From contig OX422198.1 in assembly GCA_949130485.1 (NCBI GenBank), forward strand, positions 4,961,262-5,025,261: 64,000 nucleotides of DNA. The letters are read 5' to 3'. This DNA comes from Agelas oroides. Lineage: Eukaryota > Porifera > Demospongiae > Agelasida > Agelasidae. Position 1 is the first letter of the stretch; each line of letters starts with the position of its first letter. Of this stretch, positions 16,045 through 63,305 are shown piece after piece. A program made the position numbers and the translations under genes. Under the pieces are notes generated by a model. That model was given only the letters and a program-made list of their open reading frames with translations. It was not told where the DNA came from and made no database searches.

Positions 16045-16200
16045 CCCTGGCTAAACAGGTGATCCAGGTCATGGGTTCGAGTCCCTCTCTGAGTCACTGT
16101 CTTTTTTCCCCTCTTTATTTCTCGTCTTTATTTCTCACCTTTCTTTCTCTCTGACTTTGACTTAGGTTAAGGTCTGCCAGGTCTGGAGCACGTTAAAAAT
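16045..16200 (+). repeat. tRNA-derived SINE-like fragment
   Basis: A-box-like TGGCTAAACAGG (16048-16059) is followed by a near-perfect pol III B box GGTTCGAGTCC (16074-16084), then a T/C-rich body. No clean cloverleaf could be drawn, so it is a SINE relic rather than a tRNA gene. Confidence 0.45.
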
Positions 16201-16235
16201 CTGAGCCTTCATGTACCTTGCGCTTCGCGCTCGCC

Positions 16236-16290
16236 ACCCCCCCCCCCCCCCCCCCTACACACACACACACACACATGCACACACACACTG
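16236..16290. repeat. poly(C) and (CA)n microsatellite
   Basis: About 19 consecutive C followed by ACACAC repeats. Confidence 0.9.
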
Positions 16291-16299
16291 GCTAGTTTT

Positions 16300-17800: not shown

Positions 17801-18499
17801 TTATGTGTGTATCATTAACCCAAAGCATAATGTAGTGTGCTCAATACACGTAGTAATGATTTATACGTAAGGATAGTTGACACATGCCGTATAGCACTTT
17901 AATTTCGCAAATTTCACACATGTTCAACTGTTTGAAACGTGACACACAGTTTATACACTCTAACTGCAAGAGCATCGATAGATATCCCTGAGCTAACCTG
18001 CCGAATCCGCAAGGAACTCTCTGCAAAGAGATACCTTCAAAGTAGGCATTACTTTACTGACAGCTGTAAGCTTGAGCAGATGACAATGTGATGGTGCATG
18101 CTAGATAAACTGCCACACCCATAGTATATCATTGGCATGCACATGCGGTGAAGTTGCAAAATTATTTCAACAAAACCTTTAAAAAACCACTATTTGAAGA
18201 CCCTCGAAAATTTAGCACTAATACGTAGCGCAAAAAAATAAAATTTTGCAATGCAGAAAATTTGGAATTACTGGGTTAAAGAGTGGCCTTAGAGTAACCG
18301 AAAAATATGCATATTGCCTGAATTACCTTCATTTTACCTCAAGATATGGCTTTCCGAAGTTAAACGTCGCCGTACTCATGCAGGCAAGAATTTTTTAAAT
18401 GGATGTTCTTACCAGCAGAATTGGAAAGGGGAACCAAAGCACTTTTATTTGATGTGCATTGTGAGGCTATTGATCAAAATTTCAACTGTGGCTTCAATT
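17801..18499. other. no gene recognised
   Basis: AT-rich sequence without a supported exon. The last 60 bp begin the LRR-unit intron sequence found throughout 27.6-63.3 kb. Confidence 0.5.
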
Positions 18500-18746
18500 A
18501 ATCCATTTTTGTTATTTGCAGGTGTCCAGAATGTGAGGAATGTGACAGTAGCTGCTAGCACCACACTCTCCCTAGTCCAAGGAGATCATACAGGGGCCAT
18601 TGTCACCCAGGCCAACTGTATCATGTGCATATACTTTGCATTTTAGGTCTGTATAAGGCCAATTAAGATTGCTCCTTACTTCAGTGTTTTCAAGTTCCAG
18701 TTCACTGTCAGAGCATCAGCCAGTGCAGAGGCTCCAGAATCTCCAA
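18500..18746 (-). pseudogene. truncated outlying LRR unit
   Basis: Intron sequence typical of the array, then a type A LRR exon from its donor (18680) for about 67 bp before unrelated sequence (AAAGCTGCGAGAC) replaces its start. Lies 9 kb from the main array with no acceptor, so it is non-functional. Confidence 0.75.
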
Positions 18747-18784
18747 AGCTGCGAGACAAAATCCGGAACGGAAAGCCTGGGTTC

Positions 18785-27746: not shown

Positions 27747-27830
27747 TTCAGTGTTTTCAAGTTCCAGTTCACTGTCAGAGCATCAGCCAGTGCAGAGGCT
27801 CCAGAATCTCCAACTCCATTGAATTCAAGA
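27747..27830 (-). CDS. LRR exon, type A
   Basis: Core VGDSGASALADALTVNWNL: Thr replaces Arg and Trp-Asn replaces Gln-Ser. Nearest intact exon to the 3' side of the array. Confidence 0.8.
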
Positions 27831-30800: not shown

Positions 30801-33800
30801 AGCCAACTGGGCTCTAGACTAAGGCACTGTTTTACTAAGACACTGTTGTTACCATAGCAACAGATCATGGGTTCGTCTAATGCTACACATCAAGAAATCC
30901 ATATGTGTATTATATTCAGGATAATCGATAATCTCACAAAAATCACATGGATTTTACAAATGATGTCATTAAATATTGCAAACAGTATATGTGTACTGTA
31001 AAGGTGCATGCGTTTGTGCACTTTGGCTATGTTTGAGAGGCTAGAATGCTATGAGATGGCAGTATGGTAATATCTCAAGAAAGCAAACTCCCAATCCCAA
31101 GACACTGGACTTGGGTAAGAAGTCACAGCAGAGGTAAACAAGGTGAAAGTTTATGAGTGGTAAAACAAGACTAATAGAGTTAACAAACTGTTTTTTTTGG
31201 CTGTTTAATTTAAAATACTTAACCAGAATTGTCAAGCATATCACAAGCAATTCTACAGGATTTTCTATAACTCTAGCGCATTCTCTGTATGTTAGGACCT
31301 CCCATGTGGGGTACTTACGTATGTATCTTCATATGGTAAATTAAAGGGACTATTCAGGGAAAGCTGTTGGCAAATTCACACAGTGATATTGAAGAATAGT
31401 GTACTTACCTTAATTAGGCCATGCAGTTTCTCAGACTCGCCCACATCTAGTTTTCTAGTTTTCGTTCACTGCTACTTTTTTTTTCAGAGGTAATATTTAC
31501 GTACTTTTCTCCAGTTACAAGCATACGATCGACACGAAATAAGACGCAAAAGCCTCTCAACACTCTATCTGCGGAGAAAAATAGGCACTATGCGCTGGTG
31601 GGTGGGATTTCGATTCCCGACTGTTCGAGCTACAGTATCCACTTTGTTCACTGTGCTTCATGCCCAATGATGTCATACTGATGTCTGTTGTCTGCCCCGT
31701 AGCACTAGCTATAGCGTAGGGAGGTAGTGAGGCATGACATTGGTAGGTGCATTAGTACGGTACACATTAGACGGTGCAGTGCACCCACTCATCAGCAGTA
31801 GCTCATAGCCAAATGGTTAGGGCTTAGTGTTACAGTTAGAGTTTGGGTTAGGGTTATATCTAGGGCCAGAGAATTGAACCCTTTCCTCTTCTTTTTTTTC
31901 TTTTCTCCCCTTTTATGTTCAAACATCTTTATCTTGTTCTCCTGGCCTGCGCTGGTTTGTCGGTGTCAGACATCAGTATGACATAATCGGACATGAAGTG
32001 CGGTGAAGAAAGTGGATTCAACTCTACAAGCATCAGACAAGGATTGTGAGTGACAGTATGAGATGTTATGCCAGGAAACCGCACATGCGGGATGTACCTA
32101 GTTTCTACAGCAAATAACTAGCACAGTTTATTGAAGAACAGCCAAATGATAGAACGATCGCTGCTCGTGGCGTTAAATAATATTCATTGCAGAAAAATAG
32201 CCACTCGCCTGCATGGTTGAGAATCCCAAGATTGTCTGAGAAACCAGAAATTTTATTACCTTGGTCTTAGATGAGCGCTTGTAAACTTGGGCAGGAAATT
32301 CTATCCTGTCCCCCCTCCACTTGTCCTCACTGCAACCACCATCACACATAAATACAATACAATAGCCATTGCATAGTCATGTAAGGTTAAAAACTTACTT
32401 CAATGTTTTCAAGTTTTTCATCACTCTTGGATCAGCCAGTACAGCAGCTCCCTCGTCCCCAATTCCAGTCCACTGGTATTTATCCCATTCGAGACTAGAG
32501 TCAGGAAGTAAAACAAAGCAGTACTCCATTCTATAAAAACATCCAGCATTTCTACATGTAGCTACACCATAATTTTCAAGGGGTGAAATTTTTGTAGTTT
32601 CATAAATTTTGTCTAGTCTGCAGAATTTTACTCTGCAAATGTTTATTTTGTAAATGCCACATATGGCACTGTGTAACTACTTTCTGATGGTCCAGGGAAG
32701 GAGATCTACACTTGCTACGCAGGCACTGACATCATAACTGCAGTCAACTTTTAAATGAGCTAGGTCGGAGTTGATGTGGGCATAGCCTGGGTTGTAGTAG
32801 GTGCATGCTAAGACTAGCATGCCAACTGTTCTGATACGTGTGGTATCCTTGCACCCCTAAACAAACAGGCCAGACAATTCTCAATGCTGTGAGAGGCTTA
32901 TCTGGTGGTGAATGTGTCATCGCTGCACTCCATGCATCTATGAAATTTTATCACACAAAAAGCTGTTTCGCTGAACCTATGAAAATTTTGTTTTGATAAA
33001 AATTTGCTGCCATATAGTAGCTAGTCCTACAGAGAAGGTGGTCTGACCCTACAGTACCTACAGTTATGTTCAGAACATCAATCACTTTACAACTCACTTC
33101 AGTTCTTCCAATGACTTGTTTTGTTTCAGTGCTCTAGCCAACCCTATAGCTCCAGTGTCAGTCAGATCATTGTCTCTGAGGCTGTAGTGGAGTATAATCA
33201 GACATGAACACACTTGAGTTAGATCCACATTAAAAATTTCATGTTTCTGTTGCCATATATGGCAATGACAACTCCTCGCCACCAGAAAAGCCACTGATAC
33301 TGGTATGGGCTCCAATTGGAAAAGATACGATCACAACAGAGTTATACATGAGACTATAACTAAAACCTGCTACAATATTCAAATACACACACAAAACATC
33401 CAAGTAAGGTGGCTCGACATTGTTGTTTCCATAGCAACAGATGGTGGGTTTACAAGGAATACAGAAAGTTTGATAACTCCTAATCACCAATGGTACTGGA
33501 ATAGCATCAATTTTGTTCATTATTTACAGATGTCCATACTGTGAGAAGAGTGACAGAAGGCCATGTGCATGTACTTCACATTTTAGGTCTGTACAGGGCC
33601 AAGATAGATAGTTACTTACTGCAGTGTTTTCAAGCTCTGGTTCACTCTCAGAGCATCAGCCAGTTCAGCGGCTCCAGAATCTCCAACTGTATTGGATTCA
33701 AGACTGTGGAAGAGAGTACTCCAGAATTAGGGCAGGGGTTCATTTAGAAAACTTGTCAAGAGGGGGCAAAAGTTAAAAAGTTTGGGGGGCTTCACTAGTC

Positions 33801-36800: not shown

Positions 36801-39800
36801 ATGTTAATCAGACAGGGAGGCACTAAGAATCAGTGGAGTAGGAGGGAGTATGCATGGGAGAAACCTCCACAGCCAATGGTATATAAGTACGTATTCTTTA
36901 ATCCTCACATTTCCTGATAACAAGACACTCAGTTTACAACTCACTTCAGTTCTTCCAGTGACTTGTTTTGTTGCAGTGTTCTTGCCAGAATTATGGCTCC
37001 AGAGTCAGTCAGACCATTGCCTCTGAGGCTGCAGTGGGTATGCAGACATGAACACACTTGAGTTAGATCCACAATTCCACATTAAACAAATTCCATGTTT
37101 CTGTTGCCATATGGCAATGACAACTCCTCACCACCAGAGGAGACAATGATACTGGTATGGGCTTCAATTAGAAATGACACATTTCATGTGACCATATAGA
37201 CATGAGACTATAACTAAAATCTGTTACAATACTCAAATACATACACAAAACCTCCAACTAAAGTGGCTCCCATTGTTGTTGCCATAACAACAGGTCATGC
37301 ATTCACCAGCAATACAGAAAGTCCATGTTTCTGTTGCTTCTGACAACTTCTGACCACCAATGGTGCTGGTATATGGCTTCAATTAATCCATTTTTGTTAT
37401 TTGCAGGTGTCCATTCTGTGACAGTAGCTACTAGCACCAGTCTCCCTAGTCCAAGGAGATCATACAGGGGCCATTGTCAACCAGGCCAACCGTATCATGT
37501 GCCTATACTTTGCATTTTAGGTCTGTATAAGATTGCTCCTTACTTTAGTGTTTTCAAACTCTGGTTCACTCTCAGAGCATCAGCCAGTGCAGAGGCTCCA
37601 GAATCTCTAACTCTATTGAATTCAAGACTGTGGAAGAGAGTACTCGGGAATTAGTGCAAGTAGTGTAAAATGTTAATCAGACAGTGAGTCACTAAGAACC
37701 AATGGAGTAGGATGGAGTATGCATGGGAGAAACCTACCACAGCCAATGGTATATAAGTACGTATTAGCAACCCTTACATTTCCTGATAACAAGACACTCA
37801 GTTTACAACTCACTTCAGTTCTTCCAGTGACTTGTTATGTTCCAGTGCTCTGGCCAGAGCTACGGCTCCAGTGTCAGTCAGACCATTGTTTCTGAGGCTG
37901 TAGTGGAGTATGCAGACATGAACACACTTGAGGTAGACCCACAATTCCACATTAAACAAATTCCATGTTTCTGTTGCCATATGGCAATGACAACTCCTCA
38001 CCACCAGAGGAGACAATGATACTGGTATGGGCTTCAATTGGAAATGACACATTTCATGTGACCATATAGACATGAGACTATAACTAAAATCTGTTACAAT
38101 ACTCAAATACATACACAAAACCTCCAACTAAAGTGGCTCCCATTGTTGTTGCCATAGCAACAGGTCATGCATTCACCAGCAATACAGAAAGTCCATGTTT
38201 CTGTTGCTTCTGACAACTTCTGACCACCAATGGTGCTGGTATATGGCTTCAATTAATCCATTTTTGTTATTTGCAGGTGTCCATTCTGTGAAGAATGTGA
38301 CAGTAGCTACTAGCACCAGTCTCCCTAGTCCAAGGAGATCATACAGGGGCCATTGTCAACCAGGCCAACTGTATCATGTGCATATACTTTGCATTTTAGG
38401 TCTGTATGAGGCCAATTAAGACTGTTACTTACTTCAGTGTTTTCAAGTTCCGGTTCACTCTCAGAGCACCAGCCAGTACAGAGGCTCCAGAATCTCCAAC
38501 TCTATTGGATTCAAGACTGTGGAAGAGAGTACTCGGGAATTAGTGCAAGTAGTGTAAAATACTAGGTATACGCATGAGCATCGTGCGCCTCACACTGAGC
38601 ACGTGGAAAGTTGTCGATCAGACGAAATGGCAAAGTGTGGTGCTCTGAAGTCACACTACTGCAACACTGTGCTGCCCTCCGCCTATCCCGTTCACGGGTC
38701 AGCGAGCAAAGTGAATCGCTCAGGTACTGACGTGCAAGTCGTCTCCTGTCACTGTTATCCTGCCGTCTTTCATCCCTTTGTTGAACAGTTAACCATCTTC
38801 TATATCTCCGGACTCGTTCTCTAGATTGCCGTTGTCTTTTTCCTCTGAGTCCTCCATCGCGATGGCACCATGAGCGGCACATGCCAGAAAGGTGCGTAAA
38901 CCCGTATATTTCAATCGTAAACCAGTTACGGACAGACATACAAGCACAGCCTCAGACTAAGACTCCACTAGCGCCCGCAATGCCCGCACGATTATGTGCC
39001 TCATGCTAAGGTGTTCAGCAATTAATCAGACAGGGAGGCACTAAGAATCAATGATGTAGGATCAAGTATGCATGGGAGAAACCTACCACAGGCAATGGTA
39101 TATAAGTGCATATTCGTAACCCTCATATTTCCTGATGTAACAGCACGGCGCGCAACTTGCCAGAGTGGTGTTGCCGGACAGCGCGAGTGGTGATAACTCA
39201 GTGCAACCAATGAATGAATGAGTACAAGCAGAGCTACTTAAATACAGACACAGGAACTGATGTACAAAACTCAAAGTAAACCACTGTCTCCAGTAGCACA
39301 GATGATTCACAGGTGACAGGCACAACATGAGGGACCTAGGAGGGAATACAGCAAGCATAACACATAGGTGTTAGGTACAAGCACTAGGAAAACAAAAACC
39401 AATCTAAAACCAAATGTACAAATAAGGTCACCTAACACCAACATGATCTACATCATGCAACATGCATTAGTTATCCTACACTGTCGAAATAACTTCACTA
39501 CACAGCCCCCCTCCTTGATGGAATACGTCCCGTATTCGGCGTCTCCACTGATGTCATCTAGATCTGGGCACAGCACATCCTCGGGCGTAGTGACCCTCCT
39601 GGCCACACTATCTGCAGATCACCGTACTCTGTTGCAATTCCCGGTGGCCTCTCCCGAGTCTGGTACCAACTGATCGCTCGCTCGATCTCCAGTGGCCACT
39701 CCTGAACCAGCTGACTGCCGATCTGCCTCCAGCCGTTCAACTCGCTGCAGTAGTTCGCCCAGCTTTTCAACCAAGTCGTCTCCGTTCACGTCTCGCACAG

Positions 39801-42800
39801 TCGCCACCACTGTAGGCTCCTCGCAACCGACATGAGCTATCCTTCCGGGCCCAGTCTTTGCATATGCCTCTAGCTCCAGCGTGGCTGCTACCACTTCATC
39901 AACAGACTTTGGTCGTCGTTGTCTTATGCCAAAGGACACCTGGGGGTCGCTCAGCTGACCCAGGTAGCTGGTGAGGGCGAGGTACTCTCTTGCCTCTTGT
40001 TGTAGATCTGGATATGCCTTGTCCACAAGGCGCTGCAGGTCCTCCGTGAAGTCTGCCCATCCCTCTCCCTTGCGCTTCCGTCGGGTGTTGAGCTCAACGG
40101 CGTAGAGCTCACGCCTGCTGTCGGGGTCAAATCGCTCCCACAACGCCTTCTTAACACGGCTGTATGATCCCCGGCTCTCCTCTGTTAAATGCTGGAAGGC
40201 TCGCTGTGCCCGGCCGGTCAATCGGACCTTCAGCCACCTGAGCTTAGCGGCATCTCCATCCCACGCATTTACAGCTGCGACGCTCTCGAAGTGGGAGATC
40301 CACTCGTCCCAGCTCCCTTCTCCAGAGAACGTCTCCGTCAATAAGAGTGGTCTGTTAGCCATATCACGTTCGGTTGATAACAGAAGGTCTCGTGACGGTT
40401 GCTTCTAGGAACGGTCCTGCCGACTACGCCAGTGTAACAGCACGGCGCGCAACTTGCCGGAGTGGTGTTGCCGGACAGCGCGATGGGGTTGCAGTTGCAG
40501 GAATAACTCTTAGAGTGATGATAACTCAGTGCAATCAATGAATGAATGAGTACAAGCAGAGCTACTTAAATACAGACACAGGAACTGATGTACAAAACTC
40601 AAAGTAAATCACTGTCTCCAGTAACACAGATGATTCACAGGTGACAGGCACAACATGAGGGTACGGTGGCCGAGAAGTGCAACATTTGACATCCGTCGTC
40701 TGACATTTGTCATCTGACAACCGTCATCTGACATCTGTCATCCATCATCTGTCATCCGTCATCTGTCATCCATCATTTGGTTTTGGTGGGTGTGGTCATG
40801 GGTGTGGCTTTATAAGCACTTTCTGCTATCATGCCTTCATGGCGGTACAGGTGAGTGTATACAGTATGTAAAGTACAGTGCATCAGAAGTGATGTAAACA
40901 GTTATGGAGTTGTAAGTTTTAGCTATATACAGATTTAGCTAAGCCAAACAGCAAACATTTCATGACGTGTTTTCTTGTTCACTGTTATTGTGGACAGGTA
41001 GTTCTGGAGACCTTCAGTGGTCTGCTCACATGAATATTCTGAGGACTGTCACAATGAAAAACTGAAAAGTTGGAAATTCTGAACAGCATGCCACTTGGTT
41101 TATAGGCTCAACTCAATGGATTGTCCCAAGTAACTCCCTCTTCTTTGACTCCTCCCCTCTCCTTACCTCGAGATCTCTCTACCCTCAAAATATAACAAAA
41201 TTGCATGTTCATGCCTGCAGGAGGTAGACCACGACATGGCAGCTATACTACATTCCATACTATAGCTGACAATAAGGCTGGCCCAGTTGTATACCTATAG
41301 GTATGCAGAATTTGACCAAGAAAAAAGTGCTTATCACTTCAATATACTTCCTCATTCTGCAAAAGCAACCAAATACTGGATGGACAGAACAAGTGTAACG
41401 GAAGATTAAATCCAGAATACAACCACAAAGTATGATCTTCTGGTGCTGGTGCATTTCAGCATGACTTGGTGTCTGTTAGCCTACTTTAGAAAACAAAGGG
41501 GTGTTTACCAATTGGAAGTAAAATCATGATATGTGGGCACCAGCAAATAATCAGGCCATAAGCTGAACTTTCCAACCACCAAGTTTTTTGTCTAACTTCT
41601 CCATGTCCTCCACACTCATCTGTACCACCATGAAGGCATGATCGCGGCATAGTTTATAGACCTACGGAGATTATAGACGTATGGAGAAGGGATTGGAAAT
41701 GCGTCAAAAATTTGTAATTTTCGGGCTTAGAGCGTGTTATGGTCACGTGATCCACCTGTGGCTGCGGCCCGGCGGCTCGATCGAGCGCAGCTGCACTGAG
41801 CTGCGCGCGCTGCATGAACAAACTCCACCTACGGCTACAGCTGCATAACTGCGCGCGAGCGATCATCATCATGGCAAGCGGAATTGTGAGAGCGTCTATT
41901 TCTTCGCTGCTAGAGGAGCCAGAGCTCCTGGTGGGCACTCCTAGGAACGTAACTAAGAAGGAAGCGGCGAAGAAATTGTTGGACGAAATTATCATGGATG
42001 GAAACTTGGACATTTTTGATGCATTCGCGCAGAAGCTGGTAAGGAGCATTCAAGCTATATTTCCAGCAAGTACAGCTCAGTTAAGTGCCGAGAAAGAGAG
42101 TGAAAGGATGTTATCACAGTTTCACACGTTGAGAATTGAAAAATTCGGGCAACTGTGGAAGCAAGAGCTGTATTCAAGTTTGGGGTGGGTGGACATGCCA
42201 GATCCAATGTTGGAACAACATAGCGGCCAAATTCTGTTTGAGAAGCTTGTGGCAGGTCAATTTTGCAGTGCGACTGCATCGAAAACAATTGAAAATGTAG
42301 AACAACTAACGGCTGACAAAGAGACCATTCTACGTTATGTAGCTGAGTATGTTTCATTTAAGCTGATGAAAAGTTTTGAAGAGCGATCATCACAACAAGT
42401 GGCCGAGTACGTTGAATGCTCATCACACATGTCTGTAGAGGGTGAAGTTACAGATTTTTCAATGTACACAATGAAGTGGCTGGAACAAGTCAATTGTGGT
42501 GGGCTGTTTCATGTTAGTGATGAGACATACACCCTGTTTCGTCACATTGAATTGAAAGTTCGGAAACTGTTGCCACATACATTGTTAGCTTCAGCTAATC
42601 CATCCTCTAAATCTGCCCTGACCAAGGATGCCCTTGTTTGTGAAGTAGTCTGTGATGAAGATGTCCAGTTTCACTGGTCTATTCTGTCAGTTGATATAGA
42701 GGAAGACAACAACCCAAACAAACTCCTGAGGCACATGATAGATTTGTGGGTCACCATCAGAGCACATGTATTTACCAGTAGCTGGATACAACAATTTAAG

Positions 42801-51800: not shown

Positions 51801-54800
51801 ACCACCAATGGTGCTGGTATATGGCTTCAATTAATTAATTTTTGTTATTTACAGGCGTCTATTCTGTGAGGAATGTGACAGTAGCTGCTAGCACCAGTCT
51901 CCCTAGTCCAAGGAGCATTGTCAACCAGGAGGGACCATTGTCAACCAGGCCAACTGTATCATGTGCATATACTTTGCATTATAGGTCTGTATAAGATTGC
52001 TCCTTACTTTAGTGTTTTCAAGCTCTGGTTCACTCTCAGAGCATCAGCCAGTGCAGAGGCTCCAGAATCTCCACCTCTATTGGATTCAAGACTGTGGAAG
52101 AGAGTACTCGGGAATTAGTGCTAGTAGTGTAAAATGTTAATCAGACAGTGAGTCACTAAGAATCAGTGGAGTAGGAGGAAGTATGCATGGGAGAAACCTC
52201 CACAGTCAATGTATATAAGTACATATTCTTTAATCCTCACAATTCCTGATAGCAAGACACTCAGTCTACAACTCACTTCAGTTCTTCCAGTGACTTGTTA
52301 TGTTCCAGTGCTCTGGCCAGAACTATGGCTCCAATGTCAGTCAGACCATTGTTTCTGAGGCTGTAGTGGAGTATAATCAGACATGAACACACTTGAGTTA
52401 GATCCACAATATACAAATTCCATGTTTTTGTCGCCATGGCAATGACAACTCCTCCTTCACCAGCAGGGACAATTCATGCAACTGTCCTTGTACATCAAAT
52501 TTCACATAACCACAAGAAAAACTCTCTCAGTATGCATACTAAGAGGTTTCTTGTTAGCCTCGTCCCCAGGCCCCGCCCAGCTTTCCGTCGCTTGCAGTAC
52601 GGAAAAGCCGTGGAGAGCCTGGTATCTTTTCTCATGTGAGCATGACGTAATCGGAAAATGGCGAAATTTTGCAGAACTAACAGGCTGCGTTGTAAACTTG
52701 GGCAGGAAATTCTATACTGTCCCCCCTGCACTTGTCCTCACCGCAACCACCATCATACATAAATATAATACAATAGCTATTGCATAGTCATGCAAGGTTA
52801 AAAACTTACTTCAATGTTTTCAAGTTTTTCATCACTCTTGGATCAGCCAGTGCAGCAGCTCCCTCATCCCCAATTCCAGTCCACTGGTATTTATGCCATT
52901 CGAGACTAGATAAGGAATATATCAGGAAGTAAAACAAAGCATAATATTGCAGTACTGCAAAATGTTTTCTTTGTAAATGCCACATATGGCACTGTGTAAC
53001 TACTTTCCGATGGTCCAGGGAAGGAGATCTACACTTGCTACGCAGGCACTGACATCATAACTGCAGTCAACTCTAAAGTGAGCTAGGTCTGAGTTGATGT
53101 GGGCATAGCCTGGGTCGTAGTAGGTGCATGCTAAGACTAGCATGCCAACTGTTCTGATACGTGTGGTATCCTTGCACCCTTAAATAAACAGGCCAGACAA
53201 TTCTCAATGCTGTGAGAGGCTTATCTGGTTGTAAATGTGTCATCGCTGCAGTCCATGCATCTATGAAATTTTTAACACACAAAAAGCTGTTTCGCTGAAG
53301 CTATGAAAATGTAAAAATTTGCTGCCATATAGTAGCTAGTCCTACAGAGAAGGTGGTCTGACCCTACAGTACCTACAGTTATGTTCAGAACATCAATCAA
53401 TTTACAACTCACTTCAGTTCTTCCAATGACTTGGTTTGTTCCAGTGCTCTGGCCAGAACTATGGCTCCAGTGTCAGTCAGATCATTGTCTCTGAGGCTGT
53501 AGTGGAATATAATCAGACATGAACACACTTGAGTTAGATCCACATTAAAAATCCCATGTTTCTGTTGCTATGGCAACGACAACTCCTCGCCACCAGAAAA
53601 GCCACTGATACTGGTATGGGCTCCAATTGGAAAAGATACAATCACAACAGAGTTATACATAAGACTATAACTAAAACCTGCTACAATATTCAAGTACACA
53701 CACAAAACATCCAAGTAAGGTGGCTCGACATCGTTGTTTCCATAGCAACAGATGGTGGGTTTACAAGGAATACAGAAAGTCCGATTTTTCTGATAACTCC
53801 TAATCACTAATGGTACTGGAATAGCTTCAACTAATCAATTTTGTTCATTATTTACAGATGTCCATACTGTGAGAAGAGTGACAGAAGGCCATGTGCATGT
53901 ACTCCACATTTTAGGTCTGTACAGGGCCAAGATAGATGGTTACTTACTTCAGTGTTTTCAAGCTCTGGTTCACTCTCAGAGCATCAGCCAGTTCAGCGGC
54001 TCCAGAATCTCCAACTGTATTGGATTCAAGACTGTGGAAGAGAGGACTCCAGAATTAGGGCAGGGGTTCATTTAGAAAACTTGTCAAGAGGGGGCAAAAG
54101 GTAAAAAGTTTGGGGGGCTTCACTAGTCTTGTTCCCACACCTCACACAGTGTTCACAAGTTCCAAAGGGGGGGCAAGATTCTGGCAAAGAGGGGCGAATG
54201 CCCACCCCTAAATGAAGCCTTGGTACCAGGTAATCGGATAGTGAGGCACTAAGAATCAGTGGAGTAGGAGGCAGTATGCATGGGAGAAACCTACCACAGC
54301 CAATGGTATGTAAGTACGTATTCTTTAATCCTCACAATTCCTGATAGCAAGACACAGTTTACAACTTACTTCAGTTCTTCCAGTGACTGGTTATGTTGCA
54401 GTGCTCTGGCCAGAGCTACGGCTCCAATGTCAGTCAGACCACTGTCCCTGAGGCTGCAGTGGAGTATAATCAGACATGAACACACTTGAGTTAGATCCAC
54501 AATATACAAATTCCATGTTTTTGTCGCCATGGCAATGACAACTCCTCCTTCACCAGCAGGGACAATTCATGCAACTGTCCTTGTACATCAAATTTCACAT
54601 AATCACAAGAAAAACTCTCTCAGTATGCATACTAAGAGGTTTTTTGTTAGCCTCGTTCCCAGGCCCCGCCCAGCTTTCCGTCGCTTGCAGTACAGAAAAG
54701 CCGTGGAGAGCCTGGTATCTTTTCTCACGTGAGCATGACGCAATCGGAAAATGGCGAAATTTTGCAGAACTAACAGGCTGCGTTTCGCGTATTTTAAACC

Positions 54801-57800
54801 GACTACACGCTCAACACTTGGTGTGTAAGACAGTCGCCTCCCGCTAGCTAGATACGTGTGGTAAGTTACCTGGTACCTTGGCTCTTTTCGCTGTTCTGGG
54901 CCCGGTGCGCCTACGCACAATTAAACCCTTTCTACCATCCTTTCTATCCTGACGTCACTCACGTGAGAAAAGATACCAGGCCCTCTCCCGCTTTACCGTA
55001 CTAATAAGCGACGGAAAGCTGGGCGGGGGCTGGGAACGAGGCTAGTTTCTTGTTAGGTGCTTGAGTTACAGTTGTATGAATTGTCCCTGGTGGTGAGGAA
55101 TTGTCACGGTGGCTAGCCAACTGGGGTCTAGACACTGTTTATACTAAGGCACTGTTTTACTAAGACACTGTTGTTACCATAGCAACAGATCATGGGTTCG
55201 TCTAATGCTACACATCAAGAAATCTATATGTGTATTATATTCAGGCAAGATAATTGATAATCTCACAAAAATCACATGGATTTTCCCACGAATGATGTCA
55301 TTAAATATTGCAAACAGTATAATGTGTGCATGCGTTTGTGCACTTTGGCTATGTTTGAGAGGCTAGAATGCTATGAGATGGCAGTATGGTAATATCTCAA
55401 GAAAGCAAACTCCCAATCCCAAGACACTGGACTTGGGTAAGAAGTCACAGCAGAGGTAAACAAGGTGAAAGTTTATGAGTGGTAAAACAAGACAAATAGA
55501 GTTAACAAACTGTTTTTTGGCTGTACAATTTACATCACTAAAATACTTAACCACAATTGTCAAGCATATCACAAGCAATTCTACAGGATTTACTAGCTCA
55601 TTCTCTGTATCTTAGGATCTCTCATGTGGGTACTTACATATGCATCTTCATATGGTAAATTGCAGGGACTATTCAGGGAAAGCTGTTGGCAAATTCACAC
55701 AGTGATATTGAAGAATAATGTACTTACCTGAGGCCATGCGGTTTCTCAGACCCGCCCACATCTAGTTTTCTAGTTTTTGTTCACTGTTAATTTTTTTCAG
55801 GGGTAATATTTACGTACTTCTCTCCAGTTACAAGCATACGATCGACATGAAATAAGACGCAAAAGCCTCTCAACATACTATCTGCGGAGAAAAATAGGCA
55901 CTATGCGCTGGTGGGGGGATTTTGATCGCCGACTGTTCGAGCTAGTGTATCCACTTTGTTCACCGTGCTTCATGCCCGATGATGTCATACTGATGTCTGT
56001 CGTCTGCCCCGTAGCACTAGCTATAGCGTAGGGAGGTAGTGAGGCATGACATTGGTAGGTGCATTAGCACGGTACACATTAGACGGTGCAGTGCACCCAC
56101 TCGTCAGCAGTAGCTCGTAGCCAAATGGTTAGGGCTTAGTGTTACAGTTAGGGTTAGGGTTAGGGTTAAGGCTAGGGCTAGGGACCTCTTTTTATGTTCA
56201 AACCTTTGTCTTGCTCTCCTGGCCTGTGCTGATTTGTCGGTGTCAGACATCAGTATGACATAATCGGACATGAAGTGCGGTGAAGAAAGTGGATTCAACT
56301 CTACAGGCATTGGACGAGGATTGTGAGTGACAGTATGAGATGTTATGCCAGGAAACCGCACATACGGCATGTACCTCGTTCGTATAGCAAATAACTAGCA
56401 CAGTTTATTGAAGAACAGCCAAATGATACAACAATTGCTGCTCATGCCGTTAAATAATATTCATTGCAGAAAAATAGCCACTCGCCTGCATAGTTGAGAA
56501 TCCCAAGATTGTCTGAGAAATTAGAAATTTTATTACCTTGGTCTTAGATGAGCGCTTGTAAACTTGGGCAGGAAATTCTATACTGTCCCCCCTGCACTTG
56601 TCCTCACCGCAACCACCATCATACATAAATATAATACAATAGCTATTGCATAGTCATGCAAGGTTAAAAACTTACTTCAATGTTTTCAAGTTTTTCATCA
56701 CTCTTGGATCAGCCAGTGCAGCAGCTCCCTCATCCCCAATTCCAGTCCACTGGTATTTATGCCATTCGAGACTAGATAAGGAATATATCAGGAAGTAAAA
56801 CAAAGCATAATATTGCAGTACTGCAAAATGTTTTCTTTGTAAATGCCACATATGGCACTGTGTAACTACTTTCCGATGGTCCAGGGAAGGAGATCTACAC
56901 TTGCTACGCAGGCACTGACATCATAACTGCAGTCAACTCTAAAGTGAGCTAGGTCTGAGTTGATGTGGGCATAGCCTGGGTCGTAGTAGGTGCATGCTAA
57001 GACTAGCATGCCAACTGTTCTGATATGTGTGGTATCCTTGCACCCCTAAACAAACAGGCCAGACAATTCTCAATGCTGTGAGAGGCTTATCTGGTGGTGA
57101 ATGTGTCATCGCTGCACTCCATGCATCTATGAAACACACAAAAAGCTGTTTCGCTGAAGCTATGAAAATGTAAAAATTTGCTGCCATATAGTAGCTAGTC
57201 CTACAGAGAAGGTGGTCTGACCCTACAGTACCTACAGTTATGTTCAGAACATCATACAACTCACTTCAGTTCTTCCAATGACTTGTTTTGTTCCAGTGCT
57301 CTAGCCAACCCTATAGCTCCAGTGTCAGTCAGATCATTGTCTCTGAGGCTGCAGTGGAGTATAATCAGACATGAACACACTTGAGTTAGATTCACATTAA
57401 AAATCCCATGTTTCTGTTGCTATGGCAACGACAACTCCTCGCCACCAGAAAAGCCACTGATACTGGTATGGGCTCCAATTGGAAAAGATACAATCACAAC
57501 AGAGTTATACATAAGACTATAACTAAAACCTGCTACAATATTCAAGTACACACACAAAACATCCAAGTAAGGTGGCTCGACATTGTTGTTTCCATAGCAA
57601 CAGATGGTGGGTTTACAAGGAATACAGAAAGTTCGATTTTTCTGATAACTCCTAATCACTAATGGTACTGGAATAGCTTTAATTAATCAATTTTGTTCAT
57701 TATTTACAGATGTCCATACCGTGAGAAGAGTGACAGAAGGCCATGTGCATGTACTTCACATTTTAGGTCTGTACAGGGCCAAGATAGATGGTTACTTACT

Positions 57801-60800: not shown

Positions 60801-63305
60801 CGCCGACTGTTCGAGCTACAGTATCCACTTTGTTGACCGTGCTTCATGCCCGATGACGTCATACTGATGTCTGTCGTCTGCCCCGTAGCACTAGCTATAG
60901 TGTAGGGAGGTAGTGAGGCATGACATTGGTAGGTGCATTAACATGGTACACATTAGACGGTGCAGTGCACCCACTCGTCAGCAGTAGCGTGTAGCCAAAT
61001 GGTTAGGGCTTAGTGTTACAGTTAGGGTTAGGGTTAGGGTTAAGGCTAGGGCCAGAGAATTGAACCCTTTCCTCATTTTCCCCTCCTTTTATGTTCAAAC
61101 ATCTTTATCTTGCTCTCCTAGCCTCCGCTGATTTGTCGGTGTCAGACATCAGTATGACATAATCGGACATGAAGTGCGGTGAAGAAAGTGGATTGAACTT
61201 GATTGTGAGTGACAGTTTGAGATGTTACACCAGGAAACCGCACATACGGCATGTACCTCATTTCTACCTAGCACAGTTTATTGAAGAACAGCCAAATGAT
61301 AGAACGATCGCTGCTCGTGGCGTTAAATAATATTCATTGCAGAAAAATAGTCGCTCGCCTGCATGGTTGAGAATCCCAAGATTGTCTGAGAAACCAGAAA
61401 TTTTATTACCTTGGTCTTAGATGAGCGCTTGTAAACTTGGGTAGGAAATTCTATTCTGTCCTCCCTCCACTTGTCCTCACCGCAACCACCATCACACATA
61501 AATACAATACAATAGCCATTGCATAGTCATGTAAGGTTAAAAACTTACTTCAATGTTTTCAAGTTTTTCATCACTCTTGGATCAGCCAGTACAGCAGCTC
61601 CCTCATCCCCAATTCCAGTCCACTGGTATTTATCCCATTCGAGACTAGATAAGGAATATATCAGGAAGTAAAACAAAGCATAATATTACAGTAAATAACA
61701 TCAAGCCTCTGAATTCCTAACTAGCATTTGCCATAATAATGATCGAAGCAGCTTTTGAAATGATACCAAGGAAGAAGTCACAATTTGACTCACCACTGGG
61801 ATCCCTCAGAAGTGAGTTACATAGTGTTTTGTTTGACCTCCCTTTCCTCCTTGTTAATAGGTGGGGTAGACTCTATGTATCACATGATCTTTAGTTTGCA
61901 TGCCAATTAAGCACACTAAGTCTGTCTTTCTCTGCTTCCTTGTCAATTTTCACGCAGTGATCAGGCTATGATCAGCTTCTATTTATCATGATATCATAGT
62001 TTGCCAGCATAATGAAAGTAGTTTATAGCTGCTGTTCTTGTGCCTCACTGTCCTGCTCCTTCTCATGCAGGTGGCACAAGGAATTTGAGAAGATATATTG
62101 TTCAAGAGAATGAGGTATTTACAAGACCATAATTATACGTAAATAAAACATTACTGTGTATGTGACTGTGTATGTAGATGTTGTAACATCAACAGTTTGT
62201 CATGCAGGAAGTTATGTATTTACATAACTTCCTGCATGACAAACTAAAAATGTCAGCAATAACACTATACTAAACTGGCACTAAAGTAGTTGTCTTAGGC
62301 TCCCTAAGAGCCATCCTTGCTGGTCTTCAAATCTAAAATACAGAATTCAAATGTTCATCAATCAGTTCTATTGTCTAGACAATAGTTGAGTGCCACGCCC
62401 TGTAATCACATTTCTAAGTTGGTTGCCATGTTCCAGACCCATACCTAACTAGCATGGAGAGGGTCTGGTGACACTTGCCAGACTCATACCTAACTATCAG
62501 GGAGAAGATAATACTTGTAAACATACCTAACTATCAGGGAGAAGATAATACTTGTAAACATTCGTACAAGTGGAGAGTCAGCAGGCCGGTGTGAATTTGA
62601 AAGAGGAAACATTAAACCCCAAGTAAAGGATTAATACAACAGATCATAATGTAATACACAGGTCAGAGGAAGCATTGGACATCCAATCTGAGTGGATTTC
62701 TATTAGTGTCATGGTGTTACTTACACCAGGAATGAAACTTTGGTTCACCAACAAGCCTCCCTTCATTAGTTTGAAGAAGCCTTCAATTAATGTAAAGCTT
62801 AGCTAAGTAGCAGTGAACTTTGAATTGATAAAGGCTATTGGTAAAGCTTTTAGCTACATAGCACTGAACTCTTACCCTATTTGCTTACCTTAACATGTAT
62901 AGAAAAAATACTTTGCCTAGTTATATGCCTTCACTCTAACCAGTATGATTGTGGGAACAAGGCAAAACCACTGGTGTATGTGAAGACCACATTAAAGAAA
63001 CACTGCTAAAGTAGTCACTCAGTGGAATGTCCCAGGCTGGGATCAACTAGGGAAGCGTATACATGAAAAACCTACTTTCAATATCACATCTCTTGTGAAA
63101 GTTATGACCATATTGAGTTATTCACAGCATATGTAGTTCAAAATGATAACTGTTGAGCTCATAATTAGTTTACATCACAGCCTGTATTTAGTGTGGAAGT
63201 AGTTACCAAGTAGTTACTTACCTCAGTGTTTTCAAGCTCCGGTTCACTCTCAGAGCACTAGCCAGTGCAGAGGCTCCAGAATCTCGAATTATATTCCTTT
63301 CAAGA
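27747..63305 (-). CDS. array of 44 intact single-LRR exons, NLR-type receptor gene(s), partial
   Basis: Each exon encodes exactly one ribonuclease-inhibitor-type leucine-rich repeat, as in the ligand-sensing part of NLR receptors. Type B reads LTDTGAIALARALEHNKSL in its core, type A VGDSGASALADALRVNQSL, and type C (96 bp) QWTGIGDEGAAVLADPRV. All exons begin with one base and end with AA, so every junction makes a codon AA+C or AA+T (Asn) and any exon can be joined to any other without changing frame. That Asn sits at a fixed place in each repeat. Acceptors are CACTGCAG (B), TTCCACAG (A) and ATCTAG or similar (C); donors are GTGAGT (B) and GTAAGT (A, C). No NACHT, death or terminal exon is in the window; the 5' part should lie beyond 64000. 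Whether this is one giant gene or several is not decidable here. Confidence 0.8.
28018..28101 (-). CDS. LRR exon, type B
   Basis: Core LTATGATALARALKHNKSL. Confidence 0.8.
28615..28698 (-). CDS. LRR exon, type A
   Basis: Core VRDPGASALADALRVNQSL; a Pro replaces Ser before Gly, unusual in this array. Confidence 0.8.
28885..28968 (-). CDS. LRR exon, type B
   Basis: Core LTATGAKVLTRTLQQNKSL, among the more diverged type B units. Confidence 0.8.
29481..29564 (-). CDS. LRR exon, type A
   Basis: Starts LGSNRVGDSGASALADAL. Confidence 0.8.
29750..29833 (-). CDS. LRR exon, type B
   Basis: Starts LRDNGLTDTGAIALTRALE. Confidence 0.8.
30357..30440 (-). CDS. LRR exon, type A
   Basis: Starts LGFNRVGDSGASALADAL; donor context TAAA|GTAAGG instead of TGAA. 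Confidence 0.8.
30590..30800. repeat. imperfect foldback in LRR intron
   Basis: GACAATTCATGCAACTGT faces ACAGTTGTATGAATTGTC about 90 bp later, continuing into TGACAACTCCT...AGGAGTTGTC. The same foldback is near 52440, 54535 and 59455. The first two of these are interrupted by TAGCCTCG MITEs. Confidence 0.7.
30960..32395. repeat. spacer block preceding a type C exon, copy 1
   Basis: About 1.4 kb repeated at 46555-47970, 55290-56670 and 60220-61545, always directly left of a type C exon. Contains a TTAGGGTTA-like telomeric motif near 31848. No coding seen. Confidence 0.8.
32399..32494 (-). CDS. LRR exon, type C (96 bp)
   Basis: Thirty-two residues beginning LEWDKYQWTGIGDEGAAVLA, four residues longer than the others, with DPRVMKNLKTL at the end. 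Five copies in the window, each at the start of a larger module. Confidence 0.75.
33098..33181 (-). CDS. LRR exon, type B'
   Basis: Core LTDTGAIGLARALKQNKSL with LRDND start; this B' variant always follows a type C exon in coordinate order. Confidence 0.8.
33620..33703 (-). CDS. LRR exon, type A (A' variant)
   Basis: Starts LESNTVGDSGAAELADALRV. Confidence 0.8.
33733..33892. mobile_element. 160-bp hAT-like MITE (CAGGG ends)
   Basis: CAGGGGTTCATTTAG against CTAAATGAAGCCCTG, G-rich centre. Copies lie at the matching place beside A' exons (49236-49396, 54061-54222, 57913-58074), plus a fragment at about 59092-59134, so the insertion predates module duplication. Confidence 0.7.
34042..34125 (-). 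CDS. LRR exon, type B
   Basis: Starts LRATGLTATGAIALARALE; the conserved LRR Asn is Thr here. Confidence 0.75.
34656..34739 (-). CDS. LRR exon, type A
   Basis: Starts LEFNRVGDSGASALADALRV, the consensus type A. Confidence 0.8.
34925..35008 (-). CDS. LRR exon, type B
   Basis: Starts LRANGLTDTGAKALARALEH. Confidence 0.8.
35206..35289 (-). CDS. LRR exon, type B
   Basis: Starts LRGNGLTDTGAIVLARALQH; follows another type B only 197 bp away, breaking the A/B alternation. Confidence 0.8.
35808..35891 (-). CDS. LRR exon, type A
   Basis: Core VGDSGASALAGALRVNRNL. Confidence 0.8.
36076..36159 (-). CDS. LRR exon, type B
   Basis: Starts LKDNGLTDSGAIILARTLQQ. Confidence 0.8.
36675..36758 (-). CDS. 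LRR exon, type A
   Basis: Starts LEFNRVRNSGASALADALRV. Confidence 0.8.
36945..37028 (-). CDS. LRR exon, type B
   Basis: Starts LRGNGLTDSGAIILARTLQQ; differs from the exon at 36076 by two residues at the start. Confidence 0.8.
37544..37627 (-). CDS. LRR exon, type A
   Basis: Starts LEFNRVRDSGASALADALRV. Confidence 0.8.
37814..37897 (-). CDS. LRR exon, type B
   Basis: Starts LRNNGLTDTGAVALARALEH. Confidence 0.8.
38433..38516 (-). CDS. LRR exon, type A
   Basis: Starts LESNRVGDSGASVLAGALRV. Confidence 0.8.
38562..39021 (-). mobile_element. Helitron-like non-autonomous insert (tentative)
   Basis: Relative to sister introns, about 460 bp are inserted in GTAAAAT/TTAATCAGAC. On the minus strand the insert ends in CTAG followed by T, preceded by a Cys/Arg-rich coding-like stretch with GKRQRQSRERVRRYRRW. 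CTRR ends and A/T insertion fit Helitrons, but the 5' TC is absent (TTGCTG) and GCATGAG...CGTGCG sequences at both ends could instead be inverted termini. Confidence 0.4.
39136..39502 (-). repeat. 3' LTR (367 bp)
   Basis: Intact TG...CA LTR. Lacks about 30 bp present in the 5' LTR near TGGGGTTGCAGTTGCAGG. Confidence 0.85.
39503..39520 (-). promoter_or_regulatory. polypurine tract
   Basis: Minus strand AAGGAGGGGGG lies just before the 3' LTR, the expected plus-strand primer position. Confidence 0.7.
39619..40362 (-). CDS. retrotransposon Gag-like protein
   Basis: 247 residues starting MANRPLLLTETFSGEGSWDE, with a capsid-like helical core (FESVAAVNAWDGDAAKLRWL, RAFQHLTEESRGSYSRVKKA, FDPDSRRELYAVELNTRRKR, YLGQLSDPQVSFGIRQRRP) characteristic of Ty3/gypsy Gag. 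A coiled-coil-like EKLGELLQRVERLEADRQ follows. No CCHC zinc knuckle is present at the C-terminus. The ORF is intact, so the capsid function may be kept although pol is absent. Confidence 0.8.
   Translation of the reverse strand: MANRPLLLTETFSGEGSWDEWISHFESVAAVNAWDGDAAKLRWLKVRLTGRAQRAFQHLTEESRGSYSRVKKALWERFDPDSRRELYAVELNTRRKRKGEGWADFTEDLQRLVDKAYPDLQQEAREYLALTSYLGQLSDPQVSFGIRQRRPKSVDEVVAATLELEAYAKTGPGRIAHVGCEEPTVVATVRDVNGDDLVEKLGELLQRVERLEADRQSAGSGVATGDRASDQLVPDSGEATGNCNRVR
40415..40431 (-). promoter_or_regulatory. primer binding site for tRNA-Ser
   Basis: Plus strand TCCTGCCGACTACGCCA equals the 3' end of animal tRNA-Ser (ending ...GACTACG plus CCA), one base from the 5' LTR start at 40433. 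Confidence 0.8.
40433..40661 (-). repeat. 5' LTR, first part, up to the nested transposon
   Basis: Continues after the transposon at 44885-45282, but about 178 bp (40484-40661 and 44885-45062) are present on both sides. Confidence 0.8.
41871..42872 (+). CDS. transposon-encoded protein of unknown function
   Basis: The long frame opens at 41814, but the Met at 41871 (MASGIVRASISSLLEEPELL) looks like the natural start. A moderately charged helical protein of about 330 residues: KKEAAKKLLDEIIMDGNLDI, ETILRYVAEYVSFKLMKSFE, then CGGLFHVSDETYTLFRHIEL, CDEDVQFHWSILSVDIEE and LLRHMIDLWVTIRAHVFTSS, ending in a Lys/Cys tail. I have a faint memory of similar uncharacterised proteins in cnidarian and sponge genomes, but cannot name a domain. 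No DDE triad or zinc finger was seen. The uninterrupted frame suggests recent constraint. Confidence 0.6.
   Translation: MASGIVRASISSLLEEPELLVGTPRNVTKKEAAKKLLDEIIMDGNLDIFDAFAQKLVRSIQAIFPASTAQLSAEKESERMLSQFHTLRIEKFGQLWKQELYSSLGWVDMPDPMLEQHSGQILFEKLVAGQFCSATASKTIENVEQLTADKETILRYVAEYVSFKLMKSFEERSSQQVAEYVECSSHMSVEGEVTDFSMYTMKWLEQVNCGGLFHVSDETYTLFRHIELKVRKLLPHTLLASANPSSKSALTKDALVCEVVCDEDVQFHWSILSVDIEEDNNPNKLLRHMIDLWVTIRAHVFTSSWIQQFKLKNHKCTSKQTEHKRHCSSMKRL
43234..43317. repeat. 84-bp hairpin MITE
   Basis: CCAGGGATTTATGGCAGTAA against TTACTACAGCCATAAATCCC across a GC-rich loop; nested inside the 4.2-kb transposon. The rest of 42873-44880 shows no supported gene. Confidence 0.7.
44885..45282 (-). 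repeat. 5' LTR, second part
   Basis: Begins inside the LTR at TGGGGTTGCAG, repeats the first part for about 178 bp, then completes the LTR to CTACA. Confidence 0.8.
45314..45397 (-). CDS. LRR exon, type B
   Basis: Core LTATGATALARTLHHNRSL. Confidence 0.8.
45610..45693 (-). CDS. LRR exon, type B
   Basis: Core LTDIGAIALARALQHNKSL; second consecutive type B. Confidence 0.8.
46190..46273 (-). CDS. LRR exon, type A
   Basis: Core VGDSGASALAYTLRVNQSL. Confidence 0.8.
46461..46544 (-). CDS. LRR exon, type B
   Basis: Starts LRNNGLTDTGAIALARALEH; its acceptor side runs directly into spacer block copy 2. Confidence 0.8.
46555..47970. repeat. spacer block, copy 2
   Basis: Same as 30960-32395, with TTAGGGTTAGGGTT at about 47415-47428. 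Confidence 0.8.
47976..48071 (-). CDS. LRR exon, type C
   Basis: Contains GIGDEVAAVLADPRV; Val replaces Gly of the GDEGAA motif. Confidence 0.75.
48671..48754 (-). CDS. LRR exon, type B'
   Basis: Core LTDTGAIGLARALKQNKSL. Confidence 0.8.
49123..49206 (-). CDS. LRR exon, type A'
   Basis: Starts LESNTVGDSGAAELADALRV. Confidence 0.8.
49545..49628 (-). CDS. LRR exon, type B
   Basis: Starts LGDNGLTDTGAVALARALEH, then NTSL. Confidence 0.8.
49819..49832. repeat. short interstitial telomere-like insert
   Basis: ACCCTAACCCTAA replaces CTA of the sister introns (GACTATAACTAAAACC). Confidence 0.75.
50154..50228 (-). CDS. LRR exon, type A with 9-bp deletion (75 bp)
   Basis: VGDSGASALADALRSLKTL: three residues of the VNQ region are missing but the frame is kept. 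Confidence 0.75.
50412..50495 (-). CDS. LRR exon, type B
   Basis: Starts LRDNGLTDTGAVALARALEH, then NTSL. Confidence 0.8.
50590..50790. mobile_element. 201-bp hAT-like MITE (CAGTGGAGTAGGAACC ends)
   Basis: CAGTGGAGTAGGAACC and GGTTCCTACTCCACTG termini, flanked by CGATG and CAATG. Splits the ATGGCAATGACAAC of the sister introns. Interior has G/C runs and an AT-rich palindrome. Confidence 0.8.
51013..51776. mobile_element. 764-bp MULE-like element with GGAAC-repeat termini
   Basis: GGGTATTAGTAAAACC plus repeated GGAAC at the left, and its complement at the right. Perfect 9-bp target duplication TTCTGTTGC (51004-51012 and 51777-51785). No transposase. Confidence 0.85.
52008..52091 (-). CDS. 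LRR exon, type A
   Basis: Starts LESNRGGDSGASALADALRV. Confidence 0.8.
52277..52360 (-). CDS. LRR exon, type B
   Basis: Starts LRNNGLTDIGAIVLARALEH. Confidence 0.8.
52555..52691. mobile_element. truncated TAGCCTCG MITE
   Basis: Matches the first 137 bp of the element at 54648-55044, then jumps at CAGGCTGCGTT to the end of a spacer block. The rest of the MITE and over 1 kb of block are deleted. Confidence 0.8.
52810..52905 (-). CDS. LRR exon, type C
   Basis: Starts LEWHKYQWTGIGDEGAAALA. Confidence 0.75.
53413..53496 (-). CDS. LRR exon, type B'
   Basis: Core LTDTGAIVLARALEQTKSL. Confidence 0.8.
53948..54031 (-). CDS. LRR exon, type A'
   Basis: Starts LESNTVGDSGAAELADALRV. Confidence 0.8.
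54370..54453 (-). CDS. LRR exon, type B
   Basis: Starts LRDSGLTDIGAVALARALQH, then NQSL. Confidence 0.8.
54648..55044. mobile_element. 397-bp MITE, TAGCCTCG ends, complete copy
   Basis: TAGCCTCGTTCCCAGGCCCC faces its complement at the right end. Flanks GTTTTTTGT and GTTTCTTGT (9 bp, one mismatch). Also contains internal inverted AAAGATACCAGGC/GCCTGGTATCTTTT segments. Confidence 0.8.
55290..56670. repeat. spacer block, copy 3
   Basis: As copies 1 and 2; three TTAGGG units near 56149-56168. Confidence 0.8.
56676..56771 (-). CDS. LRR exon, type C
   Basis: Same predicted residues as the exon at 52810. Confidence 0.75.
57265..57348 (-). CDS. LRR exon, type B'
   Basis: Core LTDTGAIGLARALEQNKSL. 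Confidence 0.8.
57800..57883 (-). CDS. LRR exon, type A'
   Basis: Starts LESNTVGDSGAAELADAL; the last Leu of QSLKTL is Ser here. Confidence 0.8.
58212..58420 (-). pseudogene. LRR exon destroyed by an inverted duplication
   Basis: A type B exon begins at its donor side (CTTCAGTTCTTCCAATG) but after about 17 bp is replaced by about 120 bp of the neighbouring intron in reverse, followed by the same intron in normal orientation, making a long hairpin. Confidence 0.8.
58796..58879 (-). CDS. LRR exon, type A
   Basis: Core VRDSGASALADALRVNRNL. Confidence 0.8.
59284..59367 (-). CDS. LRR exon, type B
   Basis: Starts LRDSGLTDTGAIALARALKH. Confidence 0.8.
59883..60212. repeat. 36-bp minisatellite
   Basis: About nine units of CAATCAAAGACTGGACAGTG plus GTACATATACTGGAAG. 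It lies between two copies of GTTTGAGAGGCTAGAATGCT, a single site in the other spacer blocks. Open in several frames only because 36 is a multiple of three. Confidence 0.9.
60220..61545. repeat. spacer block, copy 4
   Basis: As the other copies; (TTAGGG)3-like tract near 61020-61043. Confidence 0.8.
61549..61644 (-). CDS. LRR exon, type C
   Basis: Starts LEWDKYQWTGIGDEGAAVLA. Confidence 0.75.
61740..63130. repeat. dispersed segment, copy B
   Basis: Partner of 16300-17800, second half inverted. Also contains a 37-bp tandem duplication (about 62488-62560). Confidence 0.7.
62194..62245. repeat. perfect 25-bp-arm hairpin
   Basis: AGTTTGTCATGCAGGAAGTT plus ATGTA, two bases, then the exact complement. 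Copy A has only one arm (about 16733-16758, with differences). Confidence 0.9.
63222..63305 (-). CDS. LRR exon, type A (most diverged)
   Basis: Starts LERNIIRDSGASALASALRV; upstream-most LRR exon in the window. Confidence 0.75.

Follow-up and report, generated by a model that had tools for sequence, protein, structure and literature searches.

To what kind of gene do several dozen consecutive exons belong that each encode a single LRR and that could be joined to one another without loss of the reading frame? This question is raised by a 64,000-nucleotide stretch of the genome of the sponge Agelas oroides (259 Mb in 141 contigs), located at C16:4961262-5025261 and referred to here as the window; positions given without a contig prefix are counted within it. 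A sequence-only reading had proposed that an array in this window might form an exceptionally long LRR receptor or a repertoire of isoforms. We examined the window together with 200 kb of flanking sequence, 264 kb in total, and describe the array, its candidate heads and 3' ends, and the way in which these parts may be connected.

Results

An array of frame-neutral single-LRR exons

To find the array, a profile made from a single repeat was run iteratively against both strands, and splice sites were then inspected. This recovered exactly the 44 single-LRR exons that the sequence-only reading had counted (Table 1), and its view that they share one splice phase and are frame neutral also held. 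An AG acceptor, a GT donor and an open frame of 1 + 3n + 2 nt are present in 44/44 exons, with the codon split after its second base (phase 2) at all of their introns. Thirty-eight exons are 84 nt long and five, all of type C, are 96 nt long; the remaining one, an A exon at 50154, measures 75 nt due to an in-frame 9-nt deletion. Two joined peptides of the main repeat types, assembled from window repeats, match PF13516 (Pfam LRR_6) above the cut-off, which makes these RI-type LRRs, and their closest solved structures are LRRC34, ribonuclease inhibitor and several NLRs.

The array does not end where the earlier reading had placed its borders. Intact exons continue to the right, where 55 (the terminal-type exon inside the window among them) form a head-side sub-array, and to the left, where 46 belong to a second gene. 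In total, C16:4907242-5106898 (~200 kb) carries 149 minus-strand copies, 144 of them intact: 55/58 in the sub-array on the right, 43/44 in that of the window and 46/47 in the second gene. One of the five copies not counted as intact, at C16:4951229, is the first-type LRR exon of the second gene, to which the border was not fitted. Counting copies that score above 15 bits, the 264 kb holds 149 on the minus strand and a single one, an inverted copy, on the plus strand, and the array is far above chance expectation. A frame-blind DNA search, reported at E <1e-3 (64 further matches at E 1e-3 to 10 fall outside this result), recovered 149/149 copies and added only the inverted copy and two 39-nt fragments; at this threshold, there was no missed full-length copy with a stop or frameshift. 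The number of intact exons is therefore not an artefact of searching for open frames. From 150 minimum changes, ~4.6 stops would be expected (P 0.011).

Several other elements are interspersed with the exons. Transposon-like ORFs were seen at 1576-2721, 39622-40404 and C16:5032915-5034051, with two reverse transcriptase matches, of which one exceeds the Pfam cut-off and the other falls just short of it, and a DUF1759 match that stays under the cut-off; the latter belongs to ORF 39622-40404 in the 6.8-kb gap, and no family was found for the other ORF there, 41751-42869. A 20-bp repeat (TAAACTATGATGCTACTTTA, with its complement) forms several arrays, in both orientations, within the 4 kb between 21381 and 25374. 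Two A exons are apparently split, with 5' and 3' pieces ~3 kb apart (C16:5052645/5055603 and 5063429/5066381); the arrangement is the same in both halves of a recent duplication and perhaps goes back to one insertion that was later duplicated.

Table 1. Positions of the LRR-exon array and associated elements within the window
Feature	Position	Strand	Basis
Array of single-LRR exons, 44 intact (18 A, 21 B, 5 C), phase-2 introns	27747..63305	-	Profile search, splice sites, frame-blind control
Sub-array without a head: 21 B, 17 A and 5 C exons (43 intact LRR exons in all), flanked on each side by a candidate gene 3'-end element	27747..61644	-	
Terminal-type LRR exon	63222..63305	-	Reciprocal best match of the second gene's last LRR exon
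Putative old 3'-end element (alpha-prime)	61760..62483	-	70-71% identical to the tails of both gene units
C-type exon (32 aa), proposed fusion junction	61549..61644	-	115 nt after truncated alpha-prime, acceptor intact
C-type exon closing a module	56676..56771	-	
C-type exon closing a module	52810..52905	-	
C-type exon closing a module	47976..48071	-	
C-type exon closing a module	32399..32494	-	
6.8-kb gap between two LRR exons, holding ORFs 39622-40404 and 41751-42869	38517..45313	.	
Degenerate A exon, acceptor side lost	18680..18763	-	
Candidate 3'-end element (alpha) of the gene unit ending in the window; candidate last exon starts at 16867	16322..17041	-	
3' flank common to the second gene (C16:4896795-4906430)	8506..18491	.	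Pieces 84-93% identical

Order of exon types

Among the 144 intact exons, 101 A/B neighbours alternate and 12 are of the same type, compared with a mean of 57 and a maximum of 77 alternating neighbours in 2000 shuffles. The alternation is real, and this part of the previously proposed module grammar stands. The other part, which placed C-B'-A' at module starts, has to be reversed: since transcription on the minus strand runs from right to left, the order is ...B-A-B-A'-B'-C, and C closes modules rather than opening them. The exact pair A'-B' precedes 9/15 C exons overall and 4/5 in the window. Behind C lies a 1.45-kb spacer, closely similar in 9 aligned copies chosen by length from 15. One such spacer contains a 36-bp minisatellite of 9.4 copies (59881-60219), and similar 12-residue repeats are seen in spacers at C16:4921204 and 4930674.

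Two Death-NACHT heads outside the window

The expectation that a NACHT exon would be found once the sequence was extended proved correct. The first head lies to the right, with a Death exon at C16:5115314-5117455 and a NACHT exon at C16:5113285-5114868, the latter 88 kb past the end of the window. The second, ~5 kb before the window, consists of a Death exon at C16:4954380-4956422 and a NACHT exon at C16:4952351-4954015. Both heads match NACHT (Pfam PF05729; E 3.5e-11 and 1.6e-12) and both upstream exons match Death (Pfam PF00531; E 1.7e-7 and 7.1e-8) above the cut-offs. With E up to 0.001, the four head exons yielded only NACHT, Death and AAA-type matches, and no ROC-COR tandem is present among these. 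For one of the two NACHT heads, a relative of solved structure was sought and none was found at E up to 0.01. At the same threshold, there was no third Death-NACHT head in the 264 kb, window included, and the idea of a head hidden inside the window was dropped. First-type LRR exons, resembling one behind a sister head on C8, follow both C16 heads; two of these lie near C16 5112 kb behind the right-hand one. By its predicted domains, the locus is a tandem Death-NACHT-LRR (NLR) receptor locus of which the window holds the 3' part; NLR genes encode immune sensors of the cell interior.

The Death exon at L025:53-2194 also encodes a long N-terminal part in which two similar copies of an unnamed stretch can be made out by eye; apart from Death, this exon has no Pfam match above the cut-off. 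Other clusters of related NACHT exons and single-LRR exons occur on C9 (0.65-1.63 and 4.56 Mb), C7 (2.88-3.29 Mb) and C8 (6.5-10.2 Mb). C9 carries 8 close-family heads and 26/30 matches to another terminal LRR exon type.

A headless sub-array behind an apparent old gene end

The 44 exons are not the single set of modules that they had been taken for. The one nearest the head is a terminal-type exon, matching the last LRR exon of the second gene at 85% over ~380 nt (416 bits; next match, 167 bits), and the remaining 43 make up a sub-array without a head: between the two candidate 3'-end elements that flank them, neither a NACHT nor a Death exon was found.

The candidate 3'-end element, alpha, is present in three full-length copies: one at each end of the headless sub-array, of which the older is called alpha-prime, and a third at the end of the second gene unit (C16:4904239-4904946). 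Downstream of alpha in the window, AATAAA occurs at 16132 and 16119, and alpha-prime lacks the ATTAAA and paired AATAAA that are located just past the other two copies. We also compared 20 other close-family heads with >=60% NACHT identity. Alpha blocks lie downstream of 9 of these, each in matching orientation (four neighbouring C8 genes, C8:8383557, C8:6536045, C4, C14 and C20), and no block was detected close to the remaining 11 (C9, 8; C8, two; C21, one). The ends of the four C8 genes are marked by blocks 1-91 and 297-430, which lie 0.3-1.9 kb past the last B exon found, while block 575-717 recurs inside C8 genes as well as at their ends, which counts against a role as a 3'-end marker. Alpha contains no long open frame, with stops in all three gene-strand frames of the three copies, and its assignment as a 3' end therefore rests on position and orientation. 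We read alpha as a 3'-end marker, with the reservation that it accompanies 9/20 heads and that one block also lies within genes.

Three other views of these elements were dropped. Alpha is not a long C-terminal domain, as it offers only a 25-residue candidate last exon that is shorter still in alpha-prime. Alpha-prime is not a mere dispersed transposon: among 38 candidates scored, full-length copies were found three times, all on C16, and while part 143-234 of the query is a dispersed repeat, the blocks at its ends (1-91 and 297-430) are met again downstream of family heads. Finally, the array does not end in the terminal exon type of the C8 and C9 sister genes, for which the 30 genome matches comprise 26 on C9, 4 on C8 and none on C16.

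The two gene units are 93.5% identical in the head, 89.8% in the upstream flank, 92.6% in the downstream flank and 92.7% over 4.3 kb of the tail, as if they had been duplicated as one unit. Since head, tail and both flanks match those of the second unit, it seems that the right-hand head and the tail in the window belong to one unit in which an older gene end is embedded. The terminal-type exon and alpha-prime look like such an old gene 3' end without its poly(A) signals, and its junction with the 43-exon headless sub-array suggests two fused NLR genes with up to 98 LRR exons behind one head.

Expansion and constraint

The two C16 units contain 47 B exons (26 + 21 in two sub-arrays) and 22 B exons, respectively. 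For the sister genes, the corresponding numbers are at least 5, 9, 7 and 4 in four C8 genes and at least 8 in a C14 gene; these are lower bounds from a search with a C8 B exon in which 150 of 363 candidates were scored and 60/69 known C16 B exons were among the 150 matches listed. The repeat number on C16 is thus several times that in the sister genes, for which the counts are lower bounds. Duplicated blocks are up to 99.4% identical, over 6.0 and 4.3 kb, in line with the rapid turnover that the sequence-only reading had anticipated, and blocks of the window sub-array are 96.8-99.4% identical to blocks in the headed array.

Across the 58 A exons, pairwise pN/pS was 1.91, and across the 69 B exons it was 0.97, values that are inflated because third codon positions are less variable than introns. 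Counted as minimum changes, nonsynonymous and synonymous substitutions stand at the neutral ratio (A, 56:18; B, 54:22), which counts against our main reading. When scaffold sites were defined from 32 LRR stretches of other NLRs, nonsynonymous and synonymous changes numbered 26:27 at scaffold sites and 84:13 at other sites (Fisher P 0.0009 for A and 0.0014 for B; all P values given here ignore shared ancestry and gene conversion). The greater amino-acid change at exposed than at scaffold positions agrees with the variable surface postulated before. Furthermore, in 27 B-A pairs with an intron of 150-215 nt, codon positions 1 and 2 were less variable than the intron at scaffold sites (P 0.001) and slightly more variable than the intron at exposed sites (P 0.045). 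With scaffold sites constrained and exposed sites freer than introns, the exons thus behave as coding sequence in which the frame is conserved and the surface is free to vary. There is a weak indication of such behaviour in the window sub-array taken by itself. Its private variants are 13 nonsynonymous and 0 synonymous, with 3 at scaffold sites, and this also fits relaxed constraint.

Discussion

How could one head be served by these exons? The reading that we prefer, at a little short of an even call, is that two neighbouring NLR genes have been fused and that the pre-mRNA of one head can run through both arrays to give a long or length-variable sensor. The path would lead from the head on the right through 55 intact LRR exons to the terminal-type exon, where alpha-prime, devoid of poly(A) signals, would be joined directly to the interior of a second LRR array of 43 exons that ends at the tail between 16.3 and 17.0 kb; a single pre-mRNA could thus take in up to 98 exons. 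Against such read-through, the spacer that follows the first C exon carries two AATAAA signals at which a transcript could end. Since all introns are in phase 2 and each exon encodes one LRR, the frame is kept whichever two exons are joined, and fusion, duplication or skipping of exons would be tolerated. Reading past the donor brings a stop at or within the next codon in 144/144 intact exons; this built-in stop follows from phase 2 and a GTRAG-like donor and may be incidental. As an unspliced donor gives a stop, any exon may end the protein cleanly, and a transcript ending in any intron would close the LRR domain. From these features, we infer as the likely use a long or length-variable LRR sensor surface that would evolve as exon modules are duplicated and exchanged in the germline, and splicing or early polyadenylation would set the extent to which the array is read.

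It is quite conceivable, if on the whole rather doubtful, that the 43 window exons are instead an orphan, namely, what is left of a third NLR gene whose head was deleted and which is untranscribed, resembling the live arrays only through recent duplication and gene conversion and perhaps serving as a reservoir of donors. The presence of three 3'-end elements for two heads speaks for this, as do the private variants, 13/13 of which are nonsynonymous, and the near identity of window blocks (96.8-99.4%) to blocks of the headed array. However, 43/44 copies are intact, splice sites included, despite an average difference of 6.7% between their B-A introns; poly(A) signals are absent from the gene end that precedes them; and the match to the second gene extends over head, tail and flanks as a single unit. 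Mis-assembly of near-identical repeats, which would have inflated the array, is very improbable. The blocks of 6.0 and 4.3 kb at 99.4% identity would be expected to invite it, but most of the 91 long block pairs (45 of 91 listed) differ by several per cent, and a 100% identical NACHT exon is found on a 1.65 Mb contig that is not this 7.67-Mb one, a comparison limited to the exon and possibly to the same assembly project.

It seems unlikely that these are ordinary long NLR genes that are spliced constitutively into one very large, fixed LRR domain, with the shared phase inherited from a NOD/NLRC architecture and playing no part in isoforms. Donors and acceptors do look uniformly good, but a ribonuclease-inhibitor-type coil of that length would probably pack poorly. 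The 46 to 98 LRRs also far exceed the B exons counted per sister gene on C8 and C14 (at least 4-9) and the 15-30 repeats in the longest sponge cluster reported (PMC12909245). In favour of constitutive splicing, one 28-aa LRR per exon is standard in most NOD/NLRC genes (PMC6642158). We consider it decidedly unlikely that one Death-NACHT head and ~100 interchangeable exons from two fused arrays give rise to a repertoire of receptors that vary in length and exon order, which would make an NLR the basis of a system like Dscam or the VLRs. Dscam genes and lamprey VLRs keep large sets of exons or LRR cassettes, interchangeable with one another, behind constant parts. Exon choice or somatic assembly is established there and would be hypothetical here. 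VLRs combine an incomplete germline gene with donor cassettes; here there is a headless sub-array, but each of the two headed units comes with its head, its exons and its tail.

One LRR per exon is a known NOD/NLRC design and not special in itself; what is new is the scale and the proposed fusion. NOD and NLRC genes have far fewer LRR exons than this locus, where one head would be served by 46 and the other by as many as 98; the locus also differs in its A/B/C module order, in having Death on an exon of its own and in the apparent joining of two arrays. The locus is an NLR variant set apart by its size, its module order and the proposed fusion. The vertebrate genes are alike in having NACHT, RI-type LRRs and frame-preserving 28-aa LRR exons with the junction at a fixed repeat position; most NOD and NLRC genes have one such LRR per exon, NLRP genes have two, and human NLRP3 skips an LRR exon (PMC6642158). 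Single-exon loss does occur, since ray-finned fish NOD2 is without one LRR exon (PMC3791470). Gene conversion is frequent among the NLRs of zebrafish, whose recognition module is, in the authors' view, B30.2 and not the LRRs (PMC4852459), which cautions against assuming that the LRRs are the sensors here. Among sponges, Dysidea avara likewise has Death-NACHT-LRR genes (NLRD) and clustered NLRX genes in an NLR-rich invertebrate genome; its NLRX have 2-4, 7-22 or 15-30 LRR repeats, with some chromosomal clustering, and the comparison is by repeat number, as exon structure is not discussed in the available text (PMC12909245). Brown algal ROCO genes also have tandem phase-2 one-LRR exons, with shuffling, selected concave-face residues and alternative splicing shown; they differ in their ROC-COR head, 72-nt exons and 16 LRR exons in the example given, and kinship is not implied (PMC11378527). 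No such array was found in print in one open literature collection, judged by titles, the starts of abstracts and passages, and it may have been reported elsewhere.

If transcripts do join many of these exons, the product would have an exceptionally long LRR domain for an NLR, and the locus would offer a natural test of the idea that splicing generates receptor repertoires in animals lacking lymphocytes. Even otherwise, it shows how neighbouring immune genes built of single-LRR exons in phase 2 could fuse, expand and swap parts with the reading frame kept.
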